Shown one piece after another: positions 4,387 through 38,330 of a DNA stretch of 64,000 nucleotides. The position numbers and the translations under genes were made by a program. How positions within the stretch are numbered: the first letter of the stretch is position 1; every line of letters begins with the position of its first letter. Under the pieces are notes generated by a model, which saw only the letters and a program-made list of their open reading frames with translations, was not told where the DNA came from and did no database searches. The DNA comes from a virus, in the IMG/VR virus record IMGVR_UViG_3300024239_000014, positions 1 to 64,000 of that record; one strand, written 5' to 3'.

Positions 4387-5424
4387 TTACAGGATCAGGC
4401 CGGTCTCGTCAACGACATCACTGCCAGTAACAAACTGGACAGAGTCTTTGCGGGACTTCGCCTTTTCCTCGTAAGCCTTCACGTGACCTTCGATCGTCTT
4501 GGCAATGACGCGCAGTTGATCGATAAAGACCACGTAATGGATCTCGCCGCAGTTTTGCAGCTGGGCTTCTTCAGGGATGTACCCTTCAGCCAGGTATTCC
4601 TGACCGATCTGGATCGGTACCGATTCACGGTCGGTGTACAACGACGCCACGGTAATCGGATGGACGACACCGGCGGCTTTAAACGCCTCGTCGTCTTTAC
4701 CAGCAAAGATTTCCAGCTGTGCCAACTGAGGTTGGGCACGGGACACCAGGTCAAATCGGAGCAGGTTGCGGATGTCTTGGGAATCCATGCCGTCATTGAG
4801 ACCGGAAGCAAGGATTCGCAGGGCGTTAACGGCGCGAACGCATTCAGCATCGATCTCGCTCTTGGGTGCTTCCACCGAATTGTGCGAATACCACATCACC
4901 AGAGGACGGCTGGTGGTTTTGGTAATGCTGTCAAGGCTCTTCAAAGTCTTGAACGTATTGCTGGCAGTGATAGCCGACTCGTGAGAACCAATCACGACGG
5001 CTACGACCGGGACTTCGCGCTTAAGCAGTTCCTGTACGATCAGTGGACCAAAGACCGACCCCGAACCACCCGAGGCCGAAAAGAGGACCACGTTAAAACC
5101 CAGTGCCCCGTGCTCCAGCAACAGGTCACCGATACTCGACGCGATGGGCGACGAGTTCTCACCACGGATCTTGCCGCTACCGTCAACGTCGGGTAGCAGA
5201 AAGACGGGAAGGTTGTCTCCGGCTTGACGGAGATTGGATCTGGAGGTGTCAGCCAGGACGATGTCCGGCGTGGCCAGGCCAGGCTGGTTTTCACCGTAAG
5301 CCAACTTACGGGCCAGGTTAATACCGCAGCCGCCACAACCGTAGATACGAATGCGATTCGGCGCAGTCTTCGCTTCATGGAAAGTCGCGATCTCTTGAGA
5401 CACGGCGACGGGACGTTTTGCCAT
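4387..5424 (-). CDS. phuZ: PhuZ-like phage tubulin/FtsZ-family GTPase
   Basis: A 345-residue tubulin-family GTPase, close to the length of phiKZ gp39. The glycine-rich N-terminal nucleotide loop RIYGCGGCGINLARK is at residues 25-40. The tubulin signature loop appears as SASGGSGSVFG at about 116-126, in place of GGGTGSG. The C-terminus is charged and ends EEKAKSRKDSVQFVTGSDVVD, as expected for a phage tubulin tail. ATG 5424 has GAGG upstream; a TTG 15 bases earlier is in frame but less likely. In phiKZ-type phages PhuZ forms a dynamic spindle that centres the phage nucleus and carries capsids. The gene lies between a 99-residue upstream partner and a zinc-ribbon gene in one minus-strand operon. 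Confidence 0.92.
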   Translation of the reverse strand: MAKRPVAVSQEIATFHEAKTAPNRIRIYGCGGCGINLARKLAYGENQPGLATPDIVLADTSRSNLRQAGDNLPVFLLPDVDGSGKIRGENSSPIASSIGDLLLEHGALGFNVVLFSASGGSGSVFGPLIVQELLKREVPVVAVVIGSHESAITASNTFKTLKSLDSITKTTSRPLVMWYSHNSVEAPKSEIDAECVRAVNALRILASGLNDGMDSQDIRNLLRFDLVSRAQPQLAQLEIFAGKDDEAFKAAGVVHPITVASLYTDRESVPIQIGQEYLAEGYIPEEAQLQNCGEIHYVVFIDQLRVIAKTIEGHVKAYEEKAKSRKDSVQFVTGSDVVDETGLIL

Positions 5425-5435
5425 AGGTATAAGCC

Positions 5436-5735
5436 TCAAATTCGTGGAGCAGTCGGACCTTTGTTCGGGCCGAGTTGATCGAAAGCAGCCATGGTGTTGG
5501 TCTGAATGCGGCGAGCTTCGCGAAGAAGCTCAATCACCCTGTGGTTGTTATCCACCGCAAGTCTCAAAGCGTCTTCAGCGGTCTTTGTCGACAGAGGTGC
5601 TGGTTTGGTGGCGGTCTGGATAGTGGTCAGAAGCATCGCGTTCTTGGCTTCGAGCTCCAGTAACACTTGCTCCAGCAGGTCTTCCAACTTGGCACCGTCA
5701 GGATTGTCACGCGACATCAGGATGGGGTTTTTCAC
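5436..5735 (-). CDS. Small helical protein upstream of the tubulin, 99 aa
   Basis: Not recognised. A mostly helical, charged protein (KLEDLLEQVLLELEAKNAML, then VDNNHRVIELLREARRIQTN) with likely coiled-coil character. It ends 11 bases before the tubulin start and is certainly co-transcribed. The start is uncertain: GTG at 5735 or ATG six codons later, neither with a strong Shine-Dalgarno. Its position would suit a tubulin regulator, but it has no visible DNA-binding motif and that role is a guess. Confidence 0.65.
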   Translation of the reverse strand: MKNPILMSRDNPDGAKLEDLLEQVLLELEAKNAMLLTTIQTATKPAPLSTKTAEDALRLAVDNNHRVIELLREARRIQTNTMAAFDQLGPNKGPTAPRI

Positions 5736-5803: not shown

Positions 5804-6637
5804 ATGTCTGGTGCCATCCAAAAAGCGCTTGATGAAATCTTTTTCCAGATTCCGATCGAGGTACTGCAACTAGCGTTCACCTCACAAAACATCTTCCTGA
5901 CCCAACGTCAGGTCAGCATTCCCGCCATGATCCGCGAAGAAGTGATCGAACGACGCGTTCGCATCGATCTCGATTGCGCAGGGGCTTCGCAAGTAGCGAT
6001 CCCGCTGACCGGACTGGTACCCGAGTACCTGGATCAATACACCCGGGTGTTTATCATCCCTGCTTCGTTGACCGATGGTCGTTCAATCAGCGCAACGCTG
6101 AGTGTCTCCTTTGGCCAATACGGGATGTACGGTTATCCGAATGCCCTGAGCCAAGGTCAGTTCAGCGCAGGGATGCCGGGTACGGATCAGTCGGTACTGA
6201 CCAACATGATCGATAACCTGAACAATGCACGTCGTCCTATCGCTCAGGTATCTTCGGCAAATGTTCGTCTGATTGCCGAAAACACTGTGATGATCACCGA
6301 GGTCATTCAACCTACCGCTGAGCTGTACCTGAACTGCCTGCTGGGCAGCGATCAAGAACTGACTCACATCCAGCCGCCGTATTGGCCGATGTTCTCTGAA
6401 CTGGTGGTGTGGGCTACCAAAGCCTACGTGTACCGCAAGCTGAACATCCAGCTCGATACCGGTGCGCTGGTAGGCGGTCAGGGACTGGGACGTATCCGTG
6501 AAGTCGTGGACGGCTACAGCGATGCTGAGCAGACTTACCAAGACATGCGTCGAGAAAAGCTCGGGAAGATGCTCTTCCTGAACGACCCGACACGGCGTAA
6601 GCAGCATCTGCGTCTGCTCATCGGTGGCGGTAACTGA
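5804..6637 (+). CDS. Probable virion structural protein, 277 aa
   Basis: Divergent from the tubulin operon, with GGAGTT five bases before ATG 5804. No catalytic motif is seen. The protein is rich in beta-type stretches, Gly/Gln/Tyr (SFGQYGMYGYPNALSQGQF) and ends in a basic C-terminus. It is followed directly by a hairpin of the CATA/TATG class. Codon choice resembles the sheath and tube genes (many C-ending codons), which suits an abundant late protein. The virion role is inferred. Confidence 0.7.
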   Translation: MSGAIQKALDEIFFQIPIEVLQLAFTSQNIFLTQRQVSIPAMIREEVIERRVRIDLDCAGASQVAIPLTGLVPEYLDQYTRVFIIPASLTDGRSISATLSVSFGQYGMYGYPNALSQGQFSAGMPGTDQSVLTNMIDNLNNARRPIAQVSSANVRLIAENTVMITEVIQPTAELYLNCLLGSDQELTHIQPPYWPMFSELVVWATKAYVYRKLNIQLDTGALVGGQGLGRIREVVDGYSDAEQTYQDMRREKLGKMLFLNDPTRRKQHLRLLIGGGN

Positions 6638-6775: not shown

Positions 6776-7351
6776 TTAGAAAGCACGGGTGTTGTATTCT
6801 GGTTCAGGGTATACTGGTTCGTGTAACTGTTCAGCTAAAATTTCGATTAGCTCTTTCTCGTCGTAGTGACGTTCGGTCGATGACAGCATGGTCAGGCATT
6901 GGTTGGCATAACGAGCGTATGCACGTTGGTGATCAGTCGCTGCGTACAGTTCAGCCAAGTGACCAGGGTCGTACCAGAGGGAATTGTTTTCAAGGTTCTG
7001 GAGCGGAATGCAATCGGGACAGCAGTACGTGAACGCTCGAAACATGTCGAACGTTTTGGTGTCGTTGATGGGGAGGAACCGAAGGGCGGTGGTCAGACCC
7101 AGCAGGACAGGGAAGATCTGGCCGATGTAGTAAAACCACGTTGGCTCAGGGGTGTCTGGTCGGTGTTGGTTCAAGCTGTCCAGGAGCTCGTCGTGGTCGA
7201 CGTTGTCCATCTCGACTGTGGACTGGACTGCCAGGTGATAGATTCGCCAACTGCCGTTGTACATCCCCAGTACGGCCAGCTGGGTGTTATCCGCGATGAG
7301 TGGTGAGAGGTCCAGGCTCAGGTGAAACTGATCGGTCAGTACTGCGCTCAT
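6776..7351 (-). CDS. Hypothetical protein, 191 aa
   Basis: Not recognised. ATG 7351 has GAGGGA six bases upstream; a longer reading to 7378 is less likely. The protein contains a hydrophobic central stretch (WFYYIGQIFPVLLGLTTAL, about residues 70-90), a Cys pair CCPDC near 110, and an acidic C-terminus. The central stretch could be a membrane segment or the core of a globular domain. It is the first minus-strand gene left of the AT-rich hairpin region and may be expressed early from there. Confidence 0.7.
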   Translation of the reverse strand: MSAVLTDQFHLSLDLSPLIADNTQLAVLGMYNGSWRIYHLAVQSTVEMDNVDHDELLDSLNQHRPDTPEPTWFYYIGQIFPVLLGLTTALRFLPINDTKTFDMFRAFTYCCPDCIPLQNLENNSLWYDPGHLAELYAATDHQRAYARYANQCLTMLSSTERHYDEKELIEILAEQLHEPVYPEPEYNTRAF

Positions 7352-7922
7352 GCAATGTCCCTCGGTGTGTCGCCCCATACGGTATATCCTGCTGTTAAGT
7401 TTAACGTTAGTTGCCTCTTTAGTTTATTACGTACGTACGCACACCCGCGCCCACCGGCGTTAAACAAGCCTTCGTACTACTTACGTAGTACTCAGGTGAT
7501 TATACGGTATTTTCCCTACGGGAAAAATACCGTGTATACACGTGCGTACCCGCACGTATAAATATATATTTAATTAAGAGAATTACGAAATATATAAATA
7601 TATTTCTATAATTTAAACTAAGGAAGTGTGCGCATAGGCGCACACGCTATTATAGTCAGGTACTTGACGTACCTTCCTGGTCGACAGACCACTCACAGTG
7701 TTTTTCACAGGATGCCTAACCTGGTGAAAAACACTATTCGTGTTCGACCTAACTGGGAGAACCTAGCAGGAGTGCTTGTGGTAAACCACGCACTCAAAAC
7801 CGAGTATATTCCTATGGACGGAAAATTCACACCGTAAAAAGTTTTGCACAAACGGGTGTTGCACACAAAGCCCCCCGACCCCCCGCGCTTCGCGGCCGGC
7901 CGGCTGGGTCAGGAGGACGACG
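7352..7922. other. Noncoding hairpin array around an AT-rich island; candidate origin or control region
   Basis: About 570 bases between divergent transcription units. Hairpins: 7474-7491 (GTACTAC/GTAGTAC), 7504-7533 (13 bp, one bulge), 7540-7557 (ACGTGCG/CGCACGT), then an almost pure A/T stretch 7558-7620, then 7626-7645 (GTGTGCGC/GCGCACAC), 7659-7673, 7679-7690 and 7697-7735 (12-bp AGTGTTTTTCAC stem). The right end (7865-7915) turns abruptly GC-rich. The A/T island could hold early promoters in both directions. Replication origin is a hypothesis from structure alone. Confidence 0.5.
7628..7837 (+). CDS. Possible small protein, 69 aa or shorter
   Basis: Weak call. The frame starts at GTG 7628 inside a hairpin, with AGGAA too close upstream. 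The C-terminal 35 residues (from NTIRVRPNWENLAG) look more native than the N-terminus. A start at ATG 7712 would give 41 residues but would lie in the loop of the 7697-7735 hairpin with no good Shine-Dalgarno. It may be an open frame by chance in a regulatory region. Confidence 0.25.
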   Translation: MRIGAHAIIVRYLTYLPGRQTTHSVFHRMPNLVKNTIRVRPNWENLAGVLVVNHALKTEYIPMDGKFTP

Positions 7923-8219
7923 ATGTCATGGCGGACGTGTTTAGCGCGGTGGTCGATGCGCAAACCGCAGGGTGCGGTGCAGGAGCCGCGTGAAGCGGCG
8001 GTAGCGCTGCTGGAGCAAGCGCTCCTGTTGGCGTACGCCAATGGCCTGACCGCACGGGACGTGGCGAGCCTCACCAACGGCGTATGGGATCGGGAGATCT
8101 TCTCACGACAGGCGGTGGATCAGACCGAAGTGCTGCACTCACTACTGGCAGCATGGAGACAGACCTGCGAAGCCAAAGGGGTGGATTGGGTCACCATGCT
8201 GCTGTGTGAAGTTACGTAA
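7923..8219 (+). CDS. Small helical protein with high-GC codons, 98 aa
   Basis: Not recognised. ATG 7923 follows GGAGGA at good spacing. The core from residue 20 is helical (EAAVALLEQALLLAYANG, then LTARDVASLTNG), with a possible helix-turn-helix feel but no confident match. GC content is clearly above that of neighbouring genes, with a GC-rich leader (CCCCCC runs), which suggests acquisition from another source. It is the first rightward gene after the AT-rich hairpin region. Confidence 0.6.
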   Translation: MSWRTCLARWSMRKPQGAVQEPREAAVALLEQALLLAYANGLTARDVASLTNGVWDREIFSRQAVDQTEVLHSLLAAWRQTCEAKGVDWVTMLLCEVT

Positions 8220-8274: not shown

Positions 8275-8421
8275 ATGACCAAACAATCTTGGGAGCCCCA
8301 ACGTCGCACATTGGAACGTTCTGAACTACGAGCAGGACAACCAGTTCGTCTTGAGGTTTACGGTCGTGATAACACACTTGTCGTCGTACGGGAAATTACA
8401 CCGGCAAGACCAGCGGCATAA
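8275..8421 (+). CDS. Very small protein, 48 aa
   Basis: Not recognised. ATG 8275 is chosen because GGAGG lies 8 bases upstream; an earlier in-frame ATG at 8239 has none. The protein begins MTKQSWEPQRRT, is basic, and ends with a strand-like TLVVVREITPARPAA. Its TAA stop lies in the GGCATAAC flank of the following hairpin. Probably co-transcribed with 7923-8219. Confidence 0.55.
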   Translation: MTKQSWEPQRRTLERSELRAGQPVRLEVYGRDNTLVVVREITPARPAA

Positions 8422-8458: not shown

Positions 8459-8812
8459 TTACGGGGTGTACAGGCCCGCGAAAGCATCAGCCACAGGCTC
8501 AATGGCGTCGGCCAGGTCGGAGGGCTTCCGATCAAACGAGATAGCGAATTGCTCAGCAGTACCGAGATTGGACTGCACGTAATCGCCGATCGCAGTAGCG
8601 AGCTCGTCAGTGTCGCTGATGTTCGTGACAGCGTAGTAGCGAATGCCGCGATCACGAAAGTACGTTTTGAGTCGTTCCTGGGCAGGTGCTTCACCAGGAG
8701 CAGTAGCGTCGATGAACGCCTTGTTGCCGGAGTAGTCGGGATTAGCGTCTAGCACTAGACGCAGTTGGGTGTTGGCAGCGGCGGCTTCAGCCACCTTGGC
8801 GATGCGAAACAT
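8459..8812 (-). CDS. Hypothetical protein, 117 aa
   Basis: Not recognised. ATG 8812 is preceded by a perfect AGGAGG six bases upstream; the frame stays open further but lacks another ribosome site. Begins MFRIAKVAEAAAANTQL and is Ala/Asp rich. It shows an alternating alpha/beta pattern (RYYAVTNISDTDELATAIGD), compatible with a small ferredoxin-like or thioredoxin-like fold. No catalytic motif is seen. Confidence 0.7.
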   Translation of the reverse strand: MFRIAKVAEAAAANTQLRLVLDANPDYSGNKAFIDATAPGEAPAQERLKTYFRDRGIRYYAVTNISDTDELATAIGDYVQSNLGTAEQFAISFDRKPSDLADAIEPVADAFAGLYTP

Positions 8813-8910
8813 GTGCGTCCTCCTTTGGACTGATTCATGGAATATCTCCACGCTGAAAGTGGTCGACACCAGCGCCGACCATAAGAACTCACTCAAAACC
8901 GTACTAAAAC

Positions 8911-8940
8911 AAAAAAAAACAGCGGAGACGAACTCCGCTG
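8911..8940 (-). terminator. Canonical intrinsic terminator
   Basis: Stem CAGCGGAG/CTCCGCTG (8920-8927 with 8933-8940), loop ACGAA, followed on the minus strand by a run of nine T. It lies about 90 bases downstream of the 9033-9749 stop. It is one of the few classical U-tract terminators in the window. Confidence 0.85.
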
Positions 8941-9032
8941 CGTTGTGACGCCAATGGCTGTGGGTAGATCACTGGATCAAAGCGGCGTCCAAGGCTCCGT
9001 TACCGGAGCGACCCTACGACACAGAAACGGGT

Positions 9033-9749
9033 TTAATCAGCGGTATCCTCGGACACAGAAACCGGGAACACGTCGATGGAGTAACCCGGCAGAGCGCGAT
9101 AGCGCAGTTGACCACGTTGACGGTAGACAACCACCAGCGTGTCCTTACCGATCGATTGGAAGGGTTTGTACTGGTACTGGTAGAGCCAGGTGCCGTCGGT
9201 GAAGGTGTAGATGGTTTCCTTCCAGCTAGGCTTGCTGGAGATGACGGCCATCATACCGCGCTTGAAACCACCGAAGAACCCGCAGTTATCAAACAAACTG
9301 GCATCGAGGTACTGGCGGTCGAAATGTTCCGCCATGTCACCGAGACTGAGGTCTTCGTTCCAACGCGGTACGACTAGTGAACGAACCTCGTGCACCATCG
9401 ATTCGGGGTCGTAATCGAAGATCGAGTACAGACCAACGATGCTGTGATCTTCGAAAACGTTGGCGGTGAGTTCGCTCAGCTTCGGGATTCCATCTGTCAG
9501 AAGAGGACGCCAGTTAGATGTGTCAACCAGATCGTCGTGGAATTCTTCGACGGCATCGACGTAGGTCTTGACGTACGCCGTTTTCTTGGTGGCATAATAG
9601 TCAAGGTAAAAGGGTTCGTAGCCATCGTACAGCGCGCGAGCACTGAGCTCGCCGTCAGCGATTGGGTAGTGCGCCAAAAGGGCGTCCATGTTAAGTTGGA
9701 ATGCGGCGCGATCGTATTCGCGCTTATAAAAACGTTTGGAGTGATCCAT
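9033..9749 (-). CDS. Hypothetical protein, 238 aa
   Basis: Not recognised. ATG 9749 has AAGGAAA five bases upstream. The sequence is rich in Tyr, Phe and Asp and mixed alpha/beta, with GGFKRGMMAVISSKPSW near residue 165 and a strand-rich C-terminus (DTLVVVYRQRGQLRYRAL). It is bracketed by a hairpin on each side, so it looks like a single-gene transcription unit. Confidence 0.7.
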   Translation of the reverse strand: MDHSKRFYKREYDRAAFQLNMDALLAHYPIADGELSARALYDGYEPFYLDYYATKKTAYVKTYVDAVEEFHDDLVDTSNWRPLLTDGIPKLSELTANVFEDHSIVGLYSIFDYDPESMVHEVRSLVVPRWNEDLSLGDMAEHFDRQYLDASLFDNCGFFGGFKRGMMAVISSKPSWKETIYTFTDGTWLYQYQYKPFQSIGKDTLVVVYRQRGQLRYRALPGYSIDVFPVSVSEDTAD

Positions 9750-9777
9750 TGCAGTTTCCTTAACTAAAGAGAATAAA

Positions 9778-9800
9778 GCGGGTAGGGATTCCCTACCCGC
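9778..9800. terminator. 10-bp hairpin downstream of the exported transglycosylase gene
   Basis: Stem GCGGGTAGGG/CCCTACCCGC with loop ATT. In minus-strand RNA it is preceded by GTCATAGC and followed by TTTATTCTCTTT, a partial U-tract. It ends the 9810-10436 transcript. Confidence 0.75.
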
Positions 9801-9809
9801 GCTATGACG

Positions 9810-10436
9810 TTAACCGTTTTCCATGAAGTACCGGAAGTACTCAGCTTCGAATGTTTTTACACTCAAACCGAACTTCCAATTGACATAGCTCCTTACCTGA
9901 GAGACCGTGCGCGCTTTACCTTTATCAGTGTAAAACACCGACCGGTTATTCTGCGCAGCTCTCGGTAAGACGGCTGACGCCTTACGATTACTTTTCGCCA
10001 GCAGGAGTTTCTTTACCCCACCTTCTCCAAGGAGATGGGCGAGATAGAGTTCTCCGGGGGTCGGGTCACGACCGAGGATGCCTTTTAAGTACGTCTGGTT
10101 ATACGCCAGCAATTCAGCTGCCATCAAGGCATTGTAACGAGCGTTGTACTTTGACGCATTAAGGGGAATCCCGTGTTTCCGGCCGTGTCCTTTTAACATA
10201 GCCTTCCAGGTACGATCTGTAAACTGGAAAAGGCCGCCGGCTGAAGTCGTCTCGGATTGAGCCCGTCGTTTGAACCTCGATTCCTTGTAAGCAAAGGCGG
10301 CAAGAACTGCTGCATCTACTTCCACGGTCTCGGCTGCTAGGAGCAGCGTTCGTGCATGGTAGTCGAAATCTTTCCCGAAGATGGGAAACGACACCCCAAC
10401 GAGCAGCAGTAGAGCGAAGATGCTCTTCATCTGCAT
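9810..10436 (-). CDS. Exported lytic transglycosylase (SLT family), probable endolysin
   Basis: 208 residues. An N-terminal hydrophobic signal (MQMKSIFALLLLVGVSFPIF) ends near residue 21. An SLT/goose-lysozyme-like domain follows: catalytic Glu in AFAYKESRF (E52), then SAGGLFQFTDRTWKAM, and LYLAHLLGEGG. ATG 10436 has AAGGAG upstream. SLT enzymes cleave peptidoglycan glycan strands; the signal implies Sec-dependent export or a signal-anchor-release endolysin. The same domain occurs in the giant virion protein at 43209-50333, including the shared FYT-x(2)-G-x(2)-RTV-x(2)-V ending, so the two are paralogous. Lysis is the likely role. Confidence 0.88.
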   Translation of the reverse strand: MQMKSIFALLLLVGVSFPIFGKDFDYHARTLLLAAETVEVDAAVLAAFAYKESRFKRRAQSETTSAGGLFQFTDRTWKAMLKGHGRKHGIPLNASKYNARYNALMAAELLAYNQTYLKGILGRDPTPGELYLAHLLGEGGVKKLLLAKSNRKASAVLPRAAQNNRSVFYTDKGKARTVSQVRSYVNWKFGLSVKTFEAEYFRYFMENG

Positions 10437-10512
10437 GATACACTCCTTCTAGGTTATTATTTCGGTGTTTCCTCAACCTACCTAGTTTCACCTCCTTTTT
10501 CTGATTTACAGA

Positions 10513-11169
10513 TTAACCAACTTGTTTGGATTTAGGCGTCCAATGGAGTTTCCACAACCGGTCGGTAAGGCGCATATCCCATTTACCATCCTTCGCCTGG
10601 TGTCGCATGGTAGTGTGAATATCGACAGCCAGTTCACCGGACTGAAAGAGACTTTCTGGCGTATCCGATGGATCGATGAAGCCCTGTACTTCAATGTCGG
10701 CATAAAGGCCTTCGGGTTTATTACCGTGGCGATCATGGCAGACAAGGTTACTCAGAATAAAAGTCGTAAGAACCCAACGTTTAGATTCTGCATCAGTGAC
10801 GCAGGTCGAAACTTCAGCGCAGATAACGCTGTTCAGCTGGTTTTCACCACACTTCAATAACCACCAATAGTCCATGCAGCCGATGTCGCCAAAGATGTGT
10901 ACCTGTTTCGATGTCTGTAGAACATTCTTGCTTTTAACAATCAGGTACTTCTTGAGATGTTCTTCTTCGCACGGGATGTGGTAATCGCCGTGACGCATCT
11001 TCTTGATATCTGACGCCGTGATTGACCCGTCGCTGTAAAAGCATGCCACCGGCCGCGTTTCGACGTCGTCACCATTTTCAAGATAGTAGTACGTCTCATC
11101 AAGCCCTTCCAGATAGAAGGGCGATTTTACACGACGCACCAAAGTTTTGCACCGGTCGAGGATGGACAT
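10513..11169 (-). CDS. Hypothetical protein, 218 aa
   Basis: Not recognised. ATG 11169 follows AGGAGG. Mixed alpha/beta with an early YYYLENGDD turn and several Cys and His residues (GCMDYWWLLKCGENQ, NLVCHDRHGNKPEGLY), which could bind metal though no standard motif is complete. It is the last of three consecutive minus-strand genes (12376-10513) that follow one another by 20-30 bases. Confidence 0.7.
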   Translation of the reverse strand: MSILDRCKTLVRRVKSPFYLEGLDETYYYLENGDDVETRPVACFYSDGSITASDIKKMRHGDYHIPCEEEHLKKYLIVKSKNVLQTSKQVHIFGDIGCMDYWWLLKCGENQLNSVICAEVSTCVTDAESKRWVLTTFILSNLVCHDRHGNKPEGLYADIEVQGFIDPSDTPESLFQSGELAVDIHTTMRHQAKDGKWDMRLTDRLWKLHWTPKSKQVG

Positions 11170-11188
11170 GAAACCTCCTATTCGGCAG

Positions 11189-11452
11189 TTACAGCGAAAT
11201 CACACCTTTGTTAGTACGGATGCACCAGCGTTCGCTGTAACGGAAAACCGCGAACCCAGCGCGCTCGAAGGATGCCGCTTTCTGGGAGTCGAGTTTTCCA
11301 TCACTCGTGAGCAACAGCCGCCGGATGTCGTCGAGCAATCCGCGATAATAGTTGCGGATATCGGCCACCAGCGACTGGTTACTAATGAGAGAATCTGCGT
11401 CGGTGTTCTGCAGACGACGGATGGTGTTGATGGTCAGTGCATTGGAAGTCAT
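11189..11452 (-). CDS. Hypothetical protein, 87 aa
   Basis: Not recognised. ATG 11452 is preceded by AAAAGGAA. Helical N-terminus (TINTIRRLQNTDADSL, then VADIRNYYRGLLDDIRRLL) and a short strand-rich C-terminus (AGFAVFRYSERWCIRTNKG). The two-part layout is that of a small DNA- or protein-binding factor, but no known domain was identified. Confidence 0.65.
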   Translation of the reverse strand: MTSNALTINTIRRLQNTDADSLISNQSLVADIRNYYRGLLDDIRRLLLTSDGKLDSQKAASFERAGFAVFRYSERWCIRTNKGVISL

Positions 11453-11479
11453 TCGAGGTTCCTTTTCGTTAACATGGTT

Positions 11480-12376
11480 TTATAATTCGCGAAACAACAA
11501 AGAGCCTTGAGCCAACGCTGTTTCGATGTCAATGACGCCGTGAAGATGTGCTTCCCAGTCGATGTCGTTATCCATGACCAACCGTACGTTGTACGCATTG
11601 GCAATCATCTTGGTAGTTGGATCTCCAAGTTCGGCATTAGGTAATTCACGAAGGTCGGTGTAAGTAATCAGACAGGGCTTACCTATCAGGTGTCCTACAT
11701 TCCCTTCATTGATGTTCATCCGTTCACTGTCGTAGCGGTCAACGAGCAACAGTAGTCTTTTACCTGACTCCGTTGTTGCTATTAGTTGACGCCGTGACGG
11801 AACATAACCGGTGATGGTGACCTTTAACACCGAAGAGAACACACGGCGATACCAACGATAATAGCTGGTACCTGGGTTTCGACGAGCGATGTACATCCCG
11901 CAGATTTGTTTATCGCGTTCACTGCGCTCTGCCAGTTCGGCGTACATATCGTCAATGTCAGATTGCAGTAATACTTTTTCATGTTGCACCAACGGTAGGT
12001 TGGTCGACACGCCTGAGCCCTGACGATAGTAGACGTGCAGGTGATACAATTCCCACTTCAGCGGTTTATCGTTTTTGATCGTGTTCAGCAGGTGCTCTTT
12101 CACAGCAGTTTCCGGAATAGACCGGTGGTTTACTATGAAACTCAGCTCATTCAGGTCGTAACCATAGTGAGTGTTGATGTACTCCCACAGCGAGTCGCCA
12201 AAGACGGTACCTGGTACCGCTTGTCGGTCGATTACAGTTTCCCATCCTTCCCGTCCACGACTGACGGTGATGAGACAACCGCGGTATGCCGGCATGATGA
12301 TACATTCTCTGTCCAGAATACCGTCTTCTTTAGGGCATGCGCTGTAGGGCCCGATCGTAAAGCTCGCTTTGATCAT
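11480..12376 (-). CDS. Hypothetical protein, 298 aa
   Basis: Not recognised. ATG 12376 has GAGG four bases upstream and reads divergently from the virion gene at 12467. The protein is Tyr- and Arg-rich with a strand-dominated middle (SVLKVTITGYVPSRRQLIA) and a RYYRWYRR-like basic cluster near residue 175. The 90-base divergent gap contains the A/T-rich stretch TTTATTATTCTTTTTGATTC, a plausible promoter region for both directions. Confidence 0.7.
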   Translation of the reverse strand: MIKASFTIGPYSACPKEDGILDRECIIMPAYRGCLITVSRGREGWETVIDRQAVPGTVFGDSLWEYINTHYGYDLNELSFIVNHRSIPETAVKEHLLNTIKNDKPLKWELYHLHVYYRQGSGVSTNLPLVQHEKVLLQSDIDDMYAELAERSERDKQICGMYIARRNPGTSYYRWYRRVFSSVLKVTITGYVPSRRQLIATTESGKRLLLLVDRYDSERMNINEGNVGHLIGKPCLITYTDLRELPNAELGDPTTKMIANAYNVRLVMDNDIDWEAHLHGVIDIETALAQGSLLFREL

Positions 12377-12466: not shown

Positions 12467-13834
12467 ATGTCAGAATTGACATTGCTTGAACCGCAACCAT
12501 TGTTTAATGATGCTACCTCAGAGCACGACTGGGCTGCAGCACCGGATCTGGAAACTGCGTTTTCAGCCTTTAGTGAAGAAAACCATTCGTTGAGCCTGGA
12601 AGCTTACAAGGAAGTCGTGAATGGGGCGTATTTGATCCAAGCCTTTACGAAGGTCTGTGGTCATTTGAAGTTTGATGCCAAACTGGCCAAACAGATTCGC
12701 CGCTACGCCAACCATTTTGCCACTAAGAATGAAGAGCATATTCATTTCTTTGGCAGCATGCTCCTAGGTGTCCACAAAGTCCGTTTCACAGAAGACGACC
12801 GTCTGGCGTGGTACAATGACATTTTGGATTGCGATGAGATCGAATTGATCGAAGCTGTCCAGAACTGCCCTACGATTGAACCAGAGTTCGTGGTTTCCTC
12901 CGATCCGATGAACCAATCGTTCATTTGGATGTTGCACCAGTTTCATCACAGCAAGCTGCTGCACGAGCACGAGATCGAAGAAGTCAAAGTAGAACTGATG
13001 AAAATCATGCACTACAAGTTCGTGACTTCACTCATTGCGCATTCGTTCAAGTTCCCAGCAGATCGCGAAGTCGCACTTGCCGCTTACAGTGCCTTGTCGA
13101 AGAAGTACGACATTAAGCGCTACGGTAGTTGGGGTGCGCTGATCCAAGCACGTGCGGAGTCGATTGTATCACGTACTGGTTTACATTACCAGACGTATGT
13201 CCGGTATGACGATGACAAAAACACCGTCTACATGGTCAACGACATTCAATCCCGTATTCGCGAGGTGATTAAGAGCTATCGGGCAGAGTTCTATAACCAG
13301 CGGGAGCAGAACAGCCGAATCGGTACATCCAGTTCGACGATTGAACTGCAGGGCGAAAAAGTGATCCGGGATCGTACCCAGGCCTTTACCTTGTATCGTC
13401 GCTACCTGTACACCACACTGACAAACCGAAACGACTTCGTTAAACCGGAGCTCATTGCGGTTGTGTCTTCTGCCATGTCGGATGTATCGCCAGTCCACAT
13501 CACTGAAGCATTGGAAGGACTCCTTCTCGCCATGCGGGATGCTAAGTCGCCTTTTGCCGAACTGATCGATGAAACCTTGCTGCATGCGATTGACTTTATC
13601 CAGCGTCAACAGGTAAAGGTCAATGACCTGCAATTCATCATTACCAAGTTGCGCGCGCTGTATACAGCATCGCGATCTGCTGACGCCTCGGTTTTGCGGA
13701 TGCGTGCTTTGGGTGATGAATTGGTCAACGAGTTTGTGCGTTCTAAGAACGACACAGTGAAAGCTGGGGTACGTACCGCGGTATTGTTGTACCTTGTCCT
13801 GCGTGCCCTGTCGCGTAACTACTACACCAAGTAA
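12467..13834 (+). CDS. Probable virion protein, 455 aa
   Basis: ATG 12467 has AGGAG seven bases upstream. The protein is mostly helical, acidic at the N-terminus (LLEPQPLFNDATSEHDWAAA) and has no enzymatic motif. It is 10 bases upstream of the 438-residue gene 13845-15161, and both start MSEL, suggesting a functional pair. The location next to the terminase, and the acidic leader that may be a cleavable propeptide, suggest a head or inner-body component. The role is inferred from context. Confidence 0.7.
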   Translation: MSELTLLEPQPLFNDATSEHDWAAAPDLETAFSAFSEENHSLSLEAYKEVVNGAYLIQAFTKVCGHLKFDAKLAKQIRRYANHFATKNEEHIHFFGSMLLGVHKVRFTEDDRLAWYNDILDCDEIELIEAVQNCPTIEPEFVVSSDPMNQSFIWMLHQFHHSKLLHEHEIEEVKVELMKIMHYKFVTSLIAHSFKFPADREVALAAYSALSKKYDIKRYGSWGALIQARAESIVSRTGLHYQTYVRYDDDKNTVYMVNDIQSRIREVIKSYRAEFYNQREQNSRIGTSSSTIELQGEKVIRDRTQAFTLYRRYLYTTLTNRNDFVKPELIAVVSSAMSDVSPVHITEALEGLLLAMRDAKSPFAELIDETLLHAIDFIQRQQVKVNDLQFIITKLRALYTASRSADASVLRMRALGDELVNEFVRSKNDTVKAGVRTAVLLYLVLRALSRNYYTK

Positions 13835-15208: not shown

Positions 15209-17575
15209 TTAAGCAGCTCGACTGTTCCAGGGGTTGTAGCCTCCTCGACCACCACCCATTCGGTTAATACCACCCATTCGCGAACGAAGCTGGCGTTTCT
15301 GTTTGATCGATTCCACCAAGTTAGTCAAGGTGTTCATCACCAGTTCTTCCTCGGTGTTAATCTGGCTAGTCAATACTTTAATGCGGTTTTCATATCGCAT
15401 CAAGGTAAAGTCGTCCGTGATGGACTTAATTTGACTTGCCATCATTTCCAGTTCTTCGCGCAGTTTCGTTTGTTCGCGCTTCTTCCGAATGTCCTCTTCG
15501 GTCATCGGTTTCGAAGCATCACCAACGAGTGCCATGACCGACAAGGTATCAATGCCATAGAAGTCCAGGTGTTTACCTTCCATGATAAACCAGGCTGCCA
15601 ACAGCCATGACATCACCATGTCGTCGTGTCCGCTGGTTTCATGGTCAATACGCCCCTTCTTCACCACCAGCGATCGAATCTGTTCCGACAGCTGTTTATC
15701 GCGTACCAGGTGCCCTGCCTTCTTCGCAGCATTCTGCAAGATACGAGAGTACAGATGCTCACGACTATTCCCGGTCGTTACGAAACCGAATTCACGGATG
15801 TAGCGATCGTGGAAATAGGTGCTTCTGCGACACAAATCGACCATAATGGCCTTGAAGTCTTCACGGCGATCGTGCTGTTCATCGACAATCTTGTTGTAGA
15901 TGCGCTTGAAGGGGTCTATTCCGCGCTGTGGCAGCATCAGCAGAAGTTTACCTAGGATGGCCGGCGCTGAGCTCTTACGTTCAATCACGAGCGTGGTATT
16001 GCGATACCGCGTCATGAAGTCCGCAAGGAAGTCCGCAAAGGTAATCAAGTTCGTTTCGTTAAACGACCCTGCACCTACCGTTGACATATCTCGTACGTCC
16101 ATCACTAACATCGCGATTTCATCTCGACCAATAGCATCACTGGTATCCATGCCAATGACGAAGTGACCTTGATGCATGGTGTTGTACACCAACGATTCTG
16201 GAATGTACCATCGGAATGCGTAGCAGTCTTTGGTAATTTCTGTGTGCTTTGGTGATTGCTCGCTCTTTTGGATGATTTCCAGCAACTGGATCGACAGCGG
16301 TGAGCCTTGAGAACCACTACTCCAAACGTTGAAGAAGTCGCGGTTGATCTGCTCAGGCGTACCACCGGCGTTGCTGATAGCGTCTTTGAGCCAAGCATCG
16401 CTAAAGCCCAACTGACGGTGCGAGAAGGTACAGTTCACCATGGTACGCTTCGGCGCGTTGTCGTTCTCGCTGAGCTTACGACAACTGTTCCTCACGACCA
16501 AGTGCAAGCGTACTTTACTCGGGATGTCCATAAAGGCTTCAGACCACGGTGCAGCCCGTTGGAACATCTCGTACATAAACCGTCCTGACCGGTCATCCTT
16601 CTTACCAGCCGTTGTGGTGAAGATGTTCCCGTATGGCTGACCAGTACGCTTGGACTCGTTACGGGCAGCGGTACCTGCTGCCAGTGCCGCTGGTAGTGTG
16701 ATGTCAATGTACGTCGTAAACGGACCTTCGTCACACTGCGTGATGGGTACGGTGTTACCACGAGCCACGTTGTTAGCAGCTGTTTCAGAGTTCTGAGCCA
16801 CTGACGTGATGTACTTGTTACCCAGCTTCTTGTAAGTCAGTTCTTGTTGGTTGTTGGCATCGAGCTTATCGGGATAGACCAAGTACTTGGGCAACAGGTC
16901 TCGAATCTTCTTCAACCGCTCGATGTTTGCCGTTCGCAGTTTATCGTCTTTAGTAATCAGCGAAATTGTGGTGTTGTTAAGTCCGATGAACAACAGGTAA
17001 ATCATCAAACAGTCCGTAGACACTGACTTACCAGTCTGACGAGGTTGGATCAACCCAACGTCGACATTGGAGAAGAACAACCAAATGAGCGAGATGTTCC
17101 CACGGTTTGCTCGGAACTTATCGGGAATGTTACCGGCAGACGGTGGGATGCGGACCACTTCACGGAAGTAATACCATGGATTGTATTTACACTCCATGGC
17201 GATCTTGACTTTGGTGTCAAAATCCAAATTCGGATCATGGGGGTCTACATGCTCCAGTTCAGGCTGCATAAGCGCCAACATGAAGTAGTAGTTCTTCACA
17301 CCCATCTTGCGGTATAGTCCAGCGAGTTCCACAAACGAGCGGTTACGCGTCGAGGTGTGAACCATCGCTGTAGGGAAGTACCGCCAGTCATCGGCAAAAC
17401 GAATCATGGGAATAGGATTGACACCAGGTTCTTCGCCTTCGATTGTGTCGTCCAACTCGTCCGTTTCTAATGCTGAGGCTAGTTCTTCCAAATCACGATT
17501 GATGAAGGCGTCAGTTAGGTCACCAGTCTTTTTGGCGGTAACGCCTAACTCAGCTTCTTTGCTTTTCACGAACAT
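15209..17575 (-). CDS. terL: Terminase large subunit (packaging ATPase/nuclease)
   Basis: 788 residues, in the size range of jumbo-phage TerL (phiKZ gp25 type). ATPase domain: adenine/Walker A region QPRQTGKS (177-184), Walker B-like ITQCDEGPF, and a coupling-type TTTAGKKDD. Nuclease domain of RNase H fold: GMDTSDAIGRDE, then VIERKSSAPAILG, then SGHDDMVMSWLLA. It powers DNA translocation into the prohead and cuts the genome. The C-terminal ~80 residues are a charged helix followed by a Gly/Arg/Asn tail. A strong GGGGAGGA precedes ATG 17575. A hairpin (17591-17620) separates it from the upstream gene. Confidence 0.95.
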   Translation of the reverse strand: MFVKSKEAELGVTAKKTGDLTDAFINRDLEELASALETDELDDTIEGEEPGVNPIPMIRFADDWRYFPTAMVHTSTRNRSFVELAGLYRKMGVKNYYFMLALMQPELEHVDPHDPNLDFDTKVKIAMECKYNPWYYFREVVRIPPSAGNIPDKFRANRGNISLIWLFFSNVDVGLIQPRQTGKSVSTDCLMIYLLFIGLNNTTISLITKDDKLRTANIERLKKIRDLLPKYLVYPDKLDANNQQELTYKKLGNKYITSVAQNSETAANNVARGNTVPITQCDEGPFTTYIDITLPAALAAGTAARNESKRTGQPYGNIFTTTAGKKDDRSGRFMYEMFQRAAPWSEAFMDIPSKVRLHLVVRNSCRKLSENDNAPKRTMVNCTFSHRQLGFSDAWLKDAISNAGGTPEQINRDFFNVWSSGSQGSPLSIQLLEIIQKSEQSPKHTEITKDCYAFRWYIPESLVYNTMHQGHFVIGMDTSDAIGRDEIAMLVMDVRDMSTVGAGSFNETNLITFADFLADFMTRYRNTTLVIERKSSAPAILGKLLLMLPQRGIDPFKRIYNKIVDEQHDRREDFKAIMVDLCRRSTYFHDRYIREFGFVTTGNSREHLYSRILQNAAKKAGHLVRDKQLSEQIRSLVVKKGRIDHETSGHDDMVMSWLLAAWFIMEGKHLDFYGIDTLSVMALVGDASKPMTEEDIRKKREQTKLREELEMMASQIKSITDDFTLMRYENRIKVLTSQINTEEELVMNTLTNLVESIKQKRQLRSRMGGINRMGGGRGGYNPWNSRAA

Positions 17576-17631: not shown

Positions 17632-19269
17632 TTACATGTGGCGTGCAGTCACTGCACTGACCCCCAGATGGAGATCATTCCCACCATCACGCTTGATCCA
17701 GTGCAGATACAGGTTCTGACCGTGTTTTACTTCGGTCGGAATGATCAGTTCAGCACCAAAGGCGTTGAGCGGGTATTCAGTCATCACACCATGAGCGTTA
17801 ACCACAAAGTGCGTCGGACGAGGCGGTCTGACTTCGAAGTCCGAATTGGTAACCGGCAGAGACTGGTAATAGAACCGTTCCAGCCAGGCATCCACGTTCG
17901 CCCAACGGTCGTTCAGACGAGCCTTGTAGGTATAGCCACTGATGTGCTCCATCATGGCGTACACTTCGGCACCGTACGGGGTGTCAGAACCGGTATCGTA
18001 GCTCACGGTCCACAGGGTCTGGGCTGCCGTACCGGCTGCAAACAGCGTCAGGCGCACAGTCTGTACGTGACGATATTTGGCAAACAGCGGGCTGACCTTG
18101 CTCAGATCGAGACTAACAGTGATGTCCTGGGTCTGACCGTACAGGTTAGCTTGGAACGGATTGCTGGTGACAGCAAATTCCACCAAGTCATCCACACGGT
18201 AGTAGGTTTCACGGTTCAGGTTGTACAGGAACCACTCCAGTCGGTATTGACTGAGCGTGTAATCCCAGTATGGGCAACAGAACAGCTTCACCGAATAAGC
18301 TCCGTCCACCGCAGTGGTCTTGGCACGGTAGTTGGCCATCACGACCTTCTCACCAATCCCCACTGCATTAAAGCTTGACTCATTTGGAGCCAGGCTGTAA
18401 CGAAGGTACAGCGGTACGCTGTTACCCAGAATGGTAGAAACGTAGTTCTCCAGACCCAGCAGTTGGATCTTGTCGCCGTCAATCGCTACGTCACGATGAC
18501 CGTCGGTGTAGTTCACCCGAGCCATCATGGTTACGGACGCCAGTGTTACGTTGATCGGGAATTCGATCAACTGAGGATCAACCGCCGATTTGAACGGCGA
18601 TACGATTTCCACGCTGGTGATGTAGCGTTCCGGTGTTTCGATGGCGCGTACGAACGACGTGTTCCACGCCAGCAGCTGTGCCTTGGAAGCAACACCACCA
18701 GCATCATCGTAGAACACCGCGGTGACCAACTCGCCGTCCACAAGACGATCGGTGCAATAACCGGTCTTCGGTGCCTTGATAGCGTAGTTGTTGTGGTCAG
18801 GCATCGCCACCACTTCGAACGGGATGTTATCACTGATGAAGTTGCCGTTCTGGTCGTAGTACTTCGAGATCACCCGACCCTGGGGGCCGATGTCAGACCC
18901 CAGAAACACTTTGCAGTACGACACCGTGCTGCTGTAGGCATGTAGGCGACGATCAAACTGCAAACGGAACGGTACGACACTGCTGTCGATCAGCATGCGC
19001 CAGCTTTCACTGGCGTACCCGGGACCCACACCGCTCAGGATGTCCAGACGGTTTTCAGGTTCTGGTTCGGCGGGTGCTTGCCAAGCCTGCAAGGTCGACA
19101 GACCCGTGGACATATCCACGGCGACCACGCGCAAAATACCTTGTACCCAATCCCACACCTTGTCGTCCACATTCGGAACGTACACGCCCGTACCGGTGGG
19201 TCCGGTATAGATTTCACTTCTGAGCCATTCGCGAAAACCGCGATTGGAGTCGAAAATAGGCTGAATCAT
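17632..19269 (-). CDS. Virion structural protein (phiKZ gp26-like position), 545 aa
   Basis: ATG 19269 has AGGAG six bases upstream. The sequence is beta-rich with many Tyr, Trp and Asn residues, no catalytic motif, and repeated strand-turn patterns. It is third in a minus-strand run 22758-15209 ending with the terminase, the same order as phiKZ gp28-gp25 as I recall it. A neck, connector or tail-associated role is likely. The start is 12 bases after the stop of the 848-residue gene. Confidence 0.75.
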   Translation of the reverse strand: MIQPIFDSNRGFREWLRSEIYTGPTGTGVYVPNVDDKVWDWVQGILRVVAVDMSTGLSTLQAWQAPAEPEPENRLDILSGVGPGYASESWRMLIDSSVVPFRLQFDRRLHAYSSTVSYCKVFLGSDIGPQGRVISKYYDQNGNFISDNIPFEVVAMPDHNNYAIKAPKTGYCTDRLVDGELVTAVFYDDAGGVASKAQLLAWNTSFVRAIETPERYITSVEIVSPFKSAVDPQLIEFPINVTLASVTMMARVNYTDGHRDVAIDGDKIQLLGLENYVSTILGNSVPLYLRYSLAPNESSFNAVGIGEKVVMANYRAKTTAVDGAYSVKLFCCPYWDYTLSQYRLEWFLYNLNRETYYRVDDLVEFAVTSNPFQANLYGQTQDITVSLDLSKVSPLFAKYRHVQTVRLTLFAAGTAAQTLWTVSYDTGSDTPYGAEVYAMMEHISGYTYKARLNDRWANVDAWLERFYYQSLPVTNSDFEVRPPRPTHFVVNAHGVMTEYPLNAFGAELIIPTEVKHGQNLYLHWIKRDGGNDLHLGVSAVTARHM

Positions 19270-19281
19270 TACAGACTCCTG

Positions 19282-21828
19282 TTACTTAACCGTCACGAAC
19301 CGCGTCAGGTCCACTTTGTTTTGCAGGAAGAGACCGATGACCCGTGACAGGTAAGCATATTCCTGCATGGTCACCTCAAGCGTCAGAACCGAGTCGTGAG
19401 GATGAATCGCCACGTACCGTAAATCCAAGCCAGTGTTCAGACATGGATCGTACGTCAGTAGCGGTTGGTAAACATTACATTCAGACATGATCTGGTGATC
19501 ACTTCTAAACGATCCGTCAATGGTTTTTACACCTGTGACGATGTCGTAAAGGATCTTGGCCAGGAACGGGCTGTACAGTGCGTACTTATCCCGAATGAAG
19601 GTAATTTCACCGATGACCGGTTCCGGCAGATACGTAGACAGGTAGGCTTTCACCTTGGTATCGATTACACGAGCTTCTTGGCGCAATACCAGCGTGTTGA
19701 AGTTCGTCACCCCGCGTACCGGCACAAACAGCTCGTTGACCTGGTACGGTGCACCTTCGTACACCGATTCAACAGTCACCCCAGAATCGTCTTCCGAAAA
19801 GCGTAACTGATCGCGATGAAGCATCCGTCCATCGGCGACACACCGAATGACCTTATCATCACGAATGTCAAACTGGTTATTGCGGCTGAGCATGCGATGC
19901 TTTACAAAGCCGAATTCGCCGATCGGTTCACGATTCAGTTCAGCATCACAAAAGCCAGTGCAACGCACCACGATCTTTTGTGTCCAAGGGGTGATATCGC
20001 TGAGATACTGCTTGTTACAGATCACGACTTCCGGGAAGTTCACGACATAATCAAGGCCTTCGATCAATGATCGACCGTTCATCCAAACGGCGATCCGACC
20101 TGGCGGTACTTCCATGATCTGTGCTTCTTGGCCAACTGGTTTCCACCGCAGGCTGAATTTCAACAGATGGTCGCGATACGTCAAGTCGAAACTGTAGGTC
20201 AGGAACTTCTTGTCAGAAATGACCAGATACGTCCAGGCTTCGGTGTTATCGGTGAAGGTAATCAGGTTGTTTTCCAGGACGTAGTCCGTGGTACCGGTGA
20301 CATCTTCCCAAGTCCGCACGCCCGGCAGATAACCGTTCTGGGTGCGGTAAACGCGATAGCTGTAATTCGGGTCTACTGTTACTGGATCAAAACCGATGAT
20401 ACCGTCGAGCTCTAAACCAGCTCGCCCTGAAATCGCTTCGATCATGACACAGCTAGGATACTGCGGAATGTAGGTCACGTTGTTTTCGTGGTACATAACG
20501 CCCAACAGTAACCCATCGCCGTCGTATTCAAACACCGTGGCATTCTGACGCAGCTCCGGAGGGAGAACAACATACCGCCGCTCACCAGAAACAGTCACCC
20601 GTTGTGGTGTGTTCGCCGCCACAACCGTCATCCCATTATAGCCGTAAGCTGTCGCTACTGCATCCAGGGTAACGTTCTCGTACGGCAACCGCATCAAGGT
20701 AGTGTAGTTGGACTGTTCCAGATTAGGCGCTTGCCATTCTTCCACGGTGGCGTTTGTGCCAATCATGGCCCGCACAATCTGAATGTCATTGAGCTTATAC
20801 AGCTCATGTATCCGATTGTTTTCAAACACCAATGGCCGATAGACGCTAGCATCACGGATATGGAACCGGAGATACACGTCTTCCATGTTAACCCAACTTT
20901 CACCATGTGGTTGATACGCCTGAACGTACATCACCGGCACGGAGTAGTCGTTGTGGGTTACCATGCGCACAGCGTCTGGTTGGTTCTTGTGGTAGTACAG
21001 CCCACGTGCATGACCGCGGGTGTTACGCTTGATCAAGAACACGTCCAGATCGTCGTAAAAGTCAATGCGGTCAGCCAGTGCCTTTGGCAAATGGATCAGG
21101 TATTTACCCTTGGCATCCAAGTTGCTGTCGAAGATGTCCAAATCACCGATCTTGATTTCATGGATACGGTCGACGGTTGGATCGAAGACAAACTCAACGA
21201 CATCGCCGATGACCACACTGCCTGAATCAAAATGGTCAACAAACCGACCATTGTGGAACGCATAAGCGTGTCCAGTGGGACTGCCTTTGTAGATCTCGAA
21301 TGTGTGTTGCAGGTTAAGCAACTCGGACATGGTTTTAATCAAACCGCCACGCACTACAATTTTGTTATTTGCAGGACGGACGACGTCAGAATCAAACCAA
21401 GCGTTGGAGTACATCCGCAGATAAAGATCCTGGTCATCGAGGTTATCGATGGTCGGACAAATCCGTACCGCCAGAATCAGGTTACCGTCATCGTTACGAT
21501 GCATCCACGATTCAGACCGAGGAATCTGTAACCCGTTGGTGAGGTACAGATCCATGACCAGGTTTTCGATTTCGCACGCATCGGACATTTTTGTCCAGAT
21601 CTCCGTGATCGTCGGTAGGCCCAATCCCGGTGAGCGGTTCTGACCGATCTGATAGACGTGGTAGCGGGCATCGCGAGACGGCATGTAGATGCGTTCAAAC
21701 TGGTAGTCGATGCTGACATACGCCCCGGTACGAGGCGTCAGGCGAGTCAGTCGTAAAACGTGCTGACGGTCCTGCTGGGGTGCACACCAAACATTTCGGA
21801 GTGCGTGCTCGACCAGGTAATGGTTCAT
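19282..21828 (-). CDS. Large virion structural protein (phiKZ gp27-like position), 848 aa
   Basis: ATG 21828 has GGAGAGG upstream. A large beta-rich protein, dense in Tyr, Asp, Asn and Arg, with repeated motifs of the type VYxPLxFENNRIHELY and VIRxVADGRMLHR. No enzyme motif is seen. Long beta-rich proteins next to sheath/tube genes in jumbo phages are typically tail or neck components; fibre-like function is possible. It shares style and probably fold elements with the 545-residue neighbour. Confidence 0.75.
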   Translation of the reverse strand: MNHYLVEHALRNVWCAPQQDRQHVLRLTRLTPRTGAYVSIDYQFERIYMPSRDARYHVYQIGQNRSPGLGLPTITEIWTKMSDACEIENLVMDLYLTNGLQIPRSESWMHRNDDGNLILAVRICPTIDNLDDQDLYLRMYSNAWFDSDVVRPANNKIVVRGGLIKTMSELLNLQHTFEIYKGSPTGHAYAFHNGRFVDHFDSGSVVIGDVVEFVFDPTVDRIHEIKIGDLDIFDSNLDAKGKYLIHLPKALADRIDFYDDLDVFLIKRNTRGHARGLYYHKNQPDAVRMVTHNDYSVPVMYVQAYQPHGESWVNMEDVYLRFHIRDASVYRPLVFENNRIHELYKLNDIQIVRAMIGTNATVEEWQAPNLEQSNYTTLMRLPYENVTLDAVATAYGYNGMTVVAANTPQRVTVSGERRYVVLPPELRQNATVFEYDGDGLLLGVMYHENNVTYIPQYPSCVMIEAISGRAGLELDGIIGFDPVTVDPNYSYRVYRTQNGYLPGVRTWEDVTGTTDYVLENNLITFTDNTEAWTYLVISDKKFLTYSFDLTYRDHLLKFSLRWKPVGQEAQIMEVPPGRIAVWMNGRSLIEGLDYVVNFPEVVICNKQYLSDITPWTQKIVVRCTGFCDAELNREPIGEFGFVKHRMLSRNNQFDIRDDKVIRCVADGRMLHRDQLRFSEDDSGVTVESVYEGAPYQVNELFVPVRGVTNFNTLVLRQEARVIDTKVKAYLSTYLPEPVIGEITFIRDKYALYSPFLAKILYDIVTGVKTIDGSFRSDHQIMSECNVYQPLLTYDPCLNTGLDLRYVAIHPHDSVLTLEVTMQEYAYLSRVIGLFLQNKVDLTRFVTVK

Positions 21829-31133: not shown

Positions 31134-31274
31134 TTTCATACTCCGGAGTGTGTGGATAGGAAACATTCAGCACCGCGCGATGCTGTTTCTGCACAACTAG
31201 ACCCCAAACGTTAAAGTTAACAGGGCCTAATTGCACGGAAAGGGACAAAAAGAAGGGTCCAGTGAAGGACCTCT

Positions 31275-31534: not shown

Positions 31535-31551
31535 GAATATAGGTTTGAAAT
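31535..31551 (-). promoter_or_regulatory. Second copy of the ACCTATATT promoter-like motif
   Basis: Reads ATTTCAAACCTATATTC on the minus strand, differing from the 27116-27132 copy at few positions. It lies upstream of the 50-residue membrane protein. The surrounding sequence is A/T-rich. Function inferred from recurrence. Confidence 0.45.
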
Positions 31552-37988: not shown

Positions 37989-38330
37989 CTAATGTCTTCA
38001 ATGTGGCCTAACCACACCCGTGCACCGCATGCACTGCTCCAGGTTTTCCCTGGATGTAGAGACTATATCTTCACCCTCGCTGGATTTGCGATAGGGTGCC
38101 TCCCATTTCGGCGGATGCCTACGAGCTCGCGCTCTAGTCGTTGAACGTTCTTCCCAGTAGGAAGCTTCGCTGCGGATTACCCAATCCCAGTCTCTTTTAC
38201 CATACCCAAGTGATTAGCTTGGCCACCTGTACATTACTGTTACAAGCTTGGTGTACTGGGCTTTCAGTGGATTCCCGTCAGTTAGAGAGGATTCGCTACC
38301 GGATTACGCCGGTAGAGGACTATGTAAATA
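37989..38330 (-). ncRNA. Group I self-splicing intron in the RNA polymerase beta gene, 342 nt, no ORF
   Basis: On the minus strand the conserved group I elements occur in order: P1 (exon GAT^TAT pairing with intron ATAGTC, U.G pair at the splice site), P2 hairpin CTACCGG/CCGGTAG, the Q-like AATCCGCAGCGAAGC (near 38164-38182), R GTTCAACGACTAGAG (near 38132-38150), and S GAAGATATAGTCTC (near 38060-38073). GACTA pairs with TAGTC to form P7. Two hairpins follow (CCAGG/CCTGG, GTGCA/TGCAC). The last intron base is G (37989). Removal fuses the two exons in frame across a conserved polymerase motif. No homing endonuclease is encoded. Confidence 0.93.

Follow-up and report, generated by a model that had tools for sequence, protein, structure and literature searches.

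A hairpin array around an A/T-rich island, kept at one place in several genera of phiKZ-like jumbo phages, is a candidate replication origin

Introduction

Does an array of hairpins in a non-coding gap of a phiKZ-like phage mark the place where replication of its DNA begins? The usual replication origin consists of an easily melting A/T-rich stretch at one site of the genome, framed by inverted repeats. For the phiKZ-type family we found no origin in the papers searchable without subscription, and the novelty of a candidate is provisional in this sense. A 2026 review on jumbo phages makes no mention of a replication origin (PMC13282480), and in a 2025 paper the origins of two giant phages were only predicted, with low reliability (PMC12390700).

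The locus studied here belongs to the IMG/VR record IMGVR_UViG_3300024239_000014 of 249,640 bases. The ends of the record carry a direct repeat of about 126-131 bases, indicating that it is probably a complete, circularly assembled genome of about 249.5 kb. The window, that is the stretch analysed, comprises its first 64 kb. We assigned the phage to the phiKZ-like (Chimalliviridae-type) phages because the window encodes the large terminase subunit TerL (15209-17575, minus strand), the tubulin PhuZ (4387-5439, minus strand; phrog_4733, E 6.6e-80), a homologue of PHIKZ042 (DUF7484; 5804-6637, plus strand) and split RNA polymerase subunits. Together with a PHIKZ032 homologue (phrog_2921; 12467-13834, plus strand), the first three of these genes serve as syntenic landmarks. 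The phage has no close relative in the searched collections. Among isolates, the best matches to its TerL have about 48-49% identity, and a nucleotide search with the element region gave no match among phage records.

Results

The array lies in a non-coding gap of 571 bases (7352-7922), which holds the whole element. An earlier note, made from the letters of the window, had described seven hairpins around an island made of A and T only, at a point of divergent transcription. The divergence is confirmed: an orphan gene on the minus strand (6776-7351) starts at 7351 with a Shine-Dalgarno sequence, and a small orphan gene on the plus strand (7923-8219) has a Shine-Dalgarno sequence and an ATG at 7923. 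Relatives of the left-hand gene were absent in IMG/VR and phage searches. The sharp GC jump reported near 7865-7870 is real as well; the site marks the leader of the right-hand gene.

All seven inverted repeats were recovered at coordinates that were exact or 1-2 nt off. Hairpin A (7474-7491) reads GTACTAC-TTAC-GTAGTAC, and hairpin B (7504-7533) has 13 bp with a one-base bulge. Hairpin C (7540-7557, ACGTGCG-TACC-CGCACGT) and hairpin D (7626-7645, GTGTGCGC-ATAG-GCGCACAC) form the left and the right border of the island and carry GTGCG/CGCAC cores. The island itself (7558-7620) is A/T-rich, not A/T-only, as 6 of its 63 bases are G or C (90.5% A/T), and it contains an 8-bp palindrome at 7587-7606. 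On its right side follow hairpin E (7658-7674, 6 bp, loop TTGAC), the minor hairpin F (7678-7691, 4-5 bp) and hairpin G (7696-7736) with the long stem GTGTTTTTCACAGG / CCTGGTGAAAAACAC. Beyond the earlier list we found an eighth, hairpin H (7770-7795, GAGTGC..GTGG-TAAA-CCAC-GCACTC).

Perfect stems of 6 bp or more number six between 7464 and 7740; 500 dinucleotide shuffles have 0.56 of them on average and never more than 4. Folded as single-stranded DNA, the segment 7460-7740 forms a row of separate hairpins with an energy of -62.2 kcal/mol, against -24.9 +/- 3.3 in shuffles (z = -11.4). In this fold all stems are Watson-Crick paired, which is compatible with palindromes acting at the level of DNA; the search methods favour such stems.

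The island is the sole stretch of the genome with 50-mers of at least 88% A/T, and its richest 60-mer reaches 92%, while the runner-up elsewhere reaches 75%. An A/T-rich segment that could serve as an unwinding element is hence found at one place in this replicon. Hairpin density alone is not unique because hairpin-dense coding regions exist at 164.8-165.1 and 223.9-224.2 kb, both of them without an island. It is the combination of hairpins and A/T-rich island that is unique in the genome.

The two coding regions were considered as sister elements and rejected, as they are coding DNA and have no island. The cluster at 223,950-224,170, where 350 bases contain nine hairpins with stems of 7 bp or more, lies inside an apparently real minus-strand gene (MSSTLTWGSFEPQ...). 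Relative to its composition, it folds more strongly than any other 200-mer of the genome, according to a GC-corrected energy scan without shuffles. The second cluster, at 164,850-165,100, also lies in a minus-strand gene (MNTIDTTTTIAAL...). A promoter-like motif, TCAAACCTATAT followed by AGGTGA, has three copies in the genome, all on the minus strand (31538-31546, 165,243 and 224,588), and each hairpin-dense gene is preceded by one of them. In phage Ea35-70, a similar ATATAGGTTTGA is located ahead of the PHIKZ032-type gene.

The earlier note had named conservation in related phages as a test of its proposal, and we found such conservation, including in distant relatives. LucasX and the IMG/VR contig L227 each carry a single, letter-for-letter identical copy of hairpin A, in the orthologous gap about 160-210 bases before the PHIKZ032-type gene. 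The TerL proteins of both are 48-50% identical to that of this phage. Across 2.9 million IMG/VR contigs, hairpin A had only two exact matches, in L227 and L228; the match in L228 lies inside a long open frame and was taken as chance. In L235, a hairpin at the same distance has the same TTAC loop on a different, still complementary stem (AGTACCC/GGGTACT), and L236 carries the related hairpin AGTAGTACC-GTA-GGTACTACT. The loop of hairpin A in LucasX is inverted relative to the others.

Other groups have their own versions of the element. The islands of Seoulvirus and Wellingtonvirus have sequence in common and GCGTGCG-rich repeats on both sides, which flank them much as hairpins C and D do here. 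GATC is in excess in these islands (10 against 3.5 expected, and 9 against 2.0). In five Chiangmaiviruses, few sequences of which two are nearly identical, 10 pairs within the hairpin stems have compensatory changes on both sides, a number reached in 0 of 500 shuffles, with 0-1 in slid controls, and 97.7% of the cells are paired. At the level of sequence, this demonstrates selection on stem pairing in these phages. The Chiangmaivirus helix closest to the start of the gene shows covariation with G-U pairs and has GNRA loops, and this one RNA-like helix raises the possibility that some of the array is part of a transcript leader. Finally, a non-coding core of about 60-120 bases with 80-89% identity (blastn) is common to phiKZ, PhiPA3, PA1C, Psa21, D6 and Viktualia.

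Between the groups (this phage and LucasX, Seoulvirus and Wellingtonvirus, the Chiangmaiviruses, the Pseudomonas phages) the sequences cannot be aligned, and only layout and place agree. From position and layout, the elements of the different genera are likely to descend from one ancestor; this ancestry is not proven because the sequence is unalignable between groups. The same lack of alignable sequence would be expected of a chance cluster, or of functionless recombination debris in a non-coding gap. The fold energy far beyond shuffles, the identical hairpin in orthologous gaps, the Chiangmaivirus covariation and the conservation across genera in the Pseudomonas phages all argue against such an explanation, which we regard as very improbable.

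What the groups have in common is the place. A hairpin-plus-A/T element lies between terL and the PHIKZ042 gene in SPN3US (at about 0.1-0.3 kb), Wellington, the Chiangmaiviruses (RSF1, at about 13.2-13.5 kb, and relatives), CR5, PhiPA3 and phiKZ (at 31.13-31.25 kb). The order terL, PHIKZ032-type gene, element, PHIKZ042 is found in this phage, LucasX, SPN3US, Wellington, RSF1 and CR5, and wherever PhuZ was detected among these phages it adjoins PHIKZ042. Only in the present phage does a block of minus-strand genes (8459-12376) separate the element from the PHIKZ032-type gene. The block includes an SLT transglycosylase, whose homologues sit far off in the relatives.

In this phage, SPN3US, Wellington and RSF1, the A/T-richest 60-mer of the genome falls within the terL-PHIKZ042 interval, and in LucasX and PhiPA3 a 60-mer of the interval ties for first. 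An extreme island is absent in LucasX, pEa_SNUABM_54 and Ea35-70. We defined a composite element as a 60-mer at least 0.20 above the A/T content of the genome with at least three hairpins within 200 bp. Seven of ten complete genomes have one, and all seven carry one within the interval, which makes up 3-8% of the genome; this figure is partly biased because RSF1 and Wellington had been picked for islands near terL and SPN3US was reached via Wellington. The placement test is therefore unbiased only for CR5, PhiPA3 and phiKZ and for a survey of PHIKZ032-type loci. In CR5 and PhiPA3, neither of which was chosen for having it, the composite element of the interval is the only one in the genome, and phiKZ has one at 31,142 and three elsewhere.

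For the survey, collections were scanned with a PHIKZ032 alignment of four sequences, as an alignment of nine was too diverse. Among 68 IMG/VR loci, elements of at least two hairpins were found in 34 on the side of the gene that corresponds to the island and in 4 on the terL side. With near-duplicates removed, 56 nonredundant loci remained; their island side carried 34 elements over 52.2 kb of non-coding DNA and their terL side 4 over 20.7 kb, an excess of 3.4-fold per non-coding kb. A deeper search from L242 found nothing. In the IMG/VR relative L034 (a 174-kb contig), two long A/T-rich tracts lie downstream of terL at a distance of about 7 kb (18855-19640), and one tract is nearly pure A/T over more than 200 bases. 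The architecture of the element, its near-uniqueness, its placement relative to terL/PHIKZ032 and PHIKZ042/PhuZ and its recurrence in other genera can all be read from the genome sequences themselves.

The proximity to terL in all lineages, at a distance of 2-10 kb, might hint at a packaging start site (pac) or at some other use of the site by the terminase. However, the PHIKZ032-type gene and others intervene, and the distance to terL varies. For the related giant phage 332-Vera, a defined end did not emerge from terminus analysis, and the proposal was a headful mechanism that lacks a certain signal (PMC12390700). A function in packaging is, in our view, improbable.

The main rival to an origin is a control region for transcription, in which the island would act as a promoter hub for a phage or host RNA polymerase and the repeats as operators or as hairpins of structured 5' leaders. 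The earlier note had listed early promoters in both directions as its principal alternative. Such a role would agree with the divergent flanking genes in this phage, LucasX and the Chiangmaiviruses, with the RNA-like covariation of one Chiangmaivirus helix, and with the predicted leaders on both sides of the element, which fold better than shuffles (z -4.3 and -3.7). However, the flanking genes are co-directional in SPN3US and pEa_SNUABM_11, and this weakens divergent early promoters as a general explanation. The neighbouring genes and their orientation vary between lineages. Sigma-70-like sites are not in excess in the gap (they may differ from the phage's own promoters), the motif TCAAACCTATAT has no copy there, and the Watson-Crick-only stems of this phage also speak against an RNA leader. 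We consider a control region unlikely on the whole, yet a much stronger contender than packaging.

The strong folding of both strands, and the G-U pairs of the one Chiangmaivirus helix, would also suit a non-coding RNA gene or a terminator made of clustered hairpins. Against this, no Rfam covariance model matched the element; the sole match in the window was a group I intron (RF00028, 78.5 bits) at 38037-38340 on the minus strand, adjacent to an RNA polymerase subunit gene or inside it. A terminator is not required between divergent genes, a scan for intrinsic terminators found none in the gap (the single match in the scanned region is at 8289-8301), and none of the stems in the gap is followed by a U-run. 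In phiKZ, Grad-seq yielded two phage non-coding RNA candidates, in the PHIKZ297-298 gap and in the 5' UTR of gene p40, and neither was described in the PHIKZ037-038 gap (PMC8545117). An RNA gene or terminator seems as improbable to us as a pac site.

Two further signals of origins were considered. Cumulative GC skew, which had been suggested as a check, has no inflection at the element in this phage. In SPN3US, RSF1 and Wellington a minimum of the raw or detrended skew is located no more than about 3 kb from the element; with gene strand as a covariate, SPN3US is marginal (5.8% of positions do better) and the others are at chance. The raw minima are explained mainly by gene orientation, and we rejected skew as origin evidence; for a lytic phage it is a weak test and not strictly origin-defining. 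Two words that resemble DnaA boxes (TTWTNCACA) occur on the plus strand of the gap, TTTTTCACA at 7701-7709 and TTTTGCACA at 7842-7850, where 0.04 would be expected, a comparison made after the fact. The gaps of eight relatives contain none. A DnaA-dependent, oriC-like origin is not supported, as the words are found in this phage only and do not form a conserved cluster of DnaA boxes.

Discussion

Overall, our data provide evidence that the segment is very probably a conserved cis element. A replication origin is its most likely function, which we infer at slightly less than even probability. The proposal of an origin or master control site is thus partly supported, by conservation and not by skew, and an origin is the leading reading. 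Position and architecture are kept independently of the neighbouring genes: the element stays while these genes and their orientation change, which favours a DNA site of the genome as a whole over the promoter or leader of one gene.

If the element is an origin, initiator proteins of the phage, perhaps also of the host, would attach to the inverted repeats that flank the island; alternatively, the repeats may be recognized as extruded hairpins. The island would then melt and become the loading site for the replicative helicase and primase or for a transcript primed within it. Initiator binding, melting and the start of replication at the element are steps that we infer from its layout.

Several known systems resemble the element in part. 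In the primary origin of phage T7, an A/T-rich non-coding stretch of about 60 bp melts beside transcription start signals. The A/T-rich non-coding stretch described here is of similar size. In contrast, T7 has no hairpin array, and T7 RNA polymerase promoters provide the priming, whereas we identified no promoter of this phage's multisubunit polymerases. The bacterial oriC combines an A/T-rich unwinding element with DnaA boxes. The element likewise has an A/T-rich stretch beside repeated sites and, in this phage, two TTWTNCACA words, and the enterobacterial relatives SPN3US and Wellington show a GATC excess. It differs from oriC in that DnaA boxes are not conserved, the repeats are inverted and are not iterons, and no skew minimum at the element survives the correction for strand. 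The oriV of the RSF1010 type has an A/T-rich segment and single-strand initiation hairpins. Similarly, the A/T-rich segment here is accompanied by inverted repeats that could form hairpins in single strands, but there are many more of them, and neither iterons nor a matching primase were identified.

Within the family, the closest comparison is the core between PHIKZ037 and PHIKZ038 of phiKZ and its homologues in PhiPA3, PA1C, Psa21, D6 and Viktualia, whose location in the terL-PHIKZ042 interval was shown for phiKZ and PhiPA3. This core is also non-coding and A/T-rich with a strong hairpin. In contrast to the element of this phage, it has one GC-rich hairpin inside A/T-rich DNA instead of hairpins that flank an island, and its sequence is unrelated.

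A broader proposal is that nucleus-forming jumbo phages have a family-wide origin at this fixed site between terL/PHIKZ032 and PHIKZ042/PhuZ, whose hairpins would be read by the phages' own initiator as folded single strands, so that the sequence may drift while architecture and place persist. We put this forward tentatively and regard it as possible but doubtful.

The element is more general than could be seen from the window in which it was first noticed. An observation in one genome has become a set of exact, testable places in phages that are grown in the laboratory, namely phiKZ (31.13-31.25 kb), SPN3US and RSF1. Should the region serve the control of transcription, it would still be a cis element whose place is conserved in several genera. 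If it is an origin, the protein that binds it would give access to the machinery that replicates the DNA within the phage nucleus.
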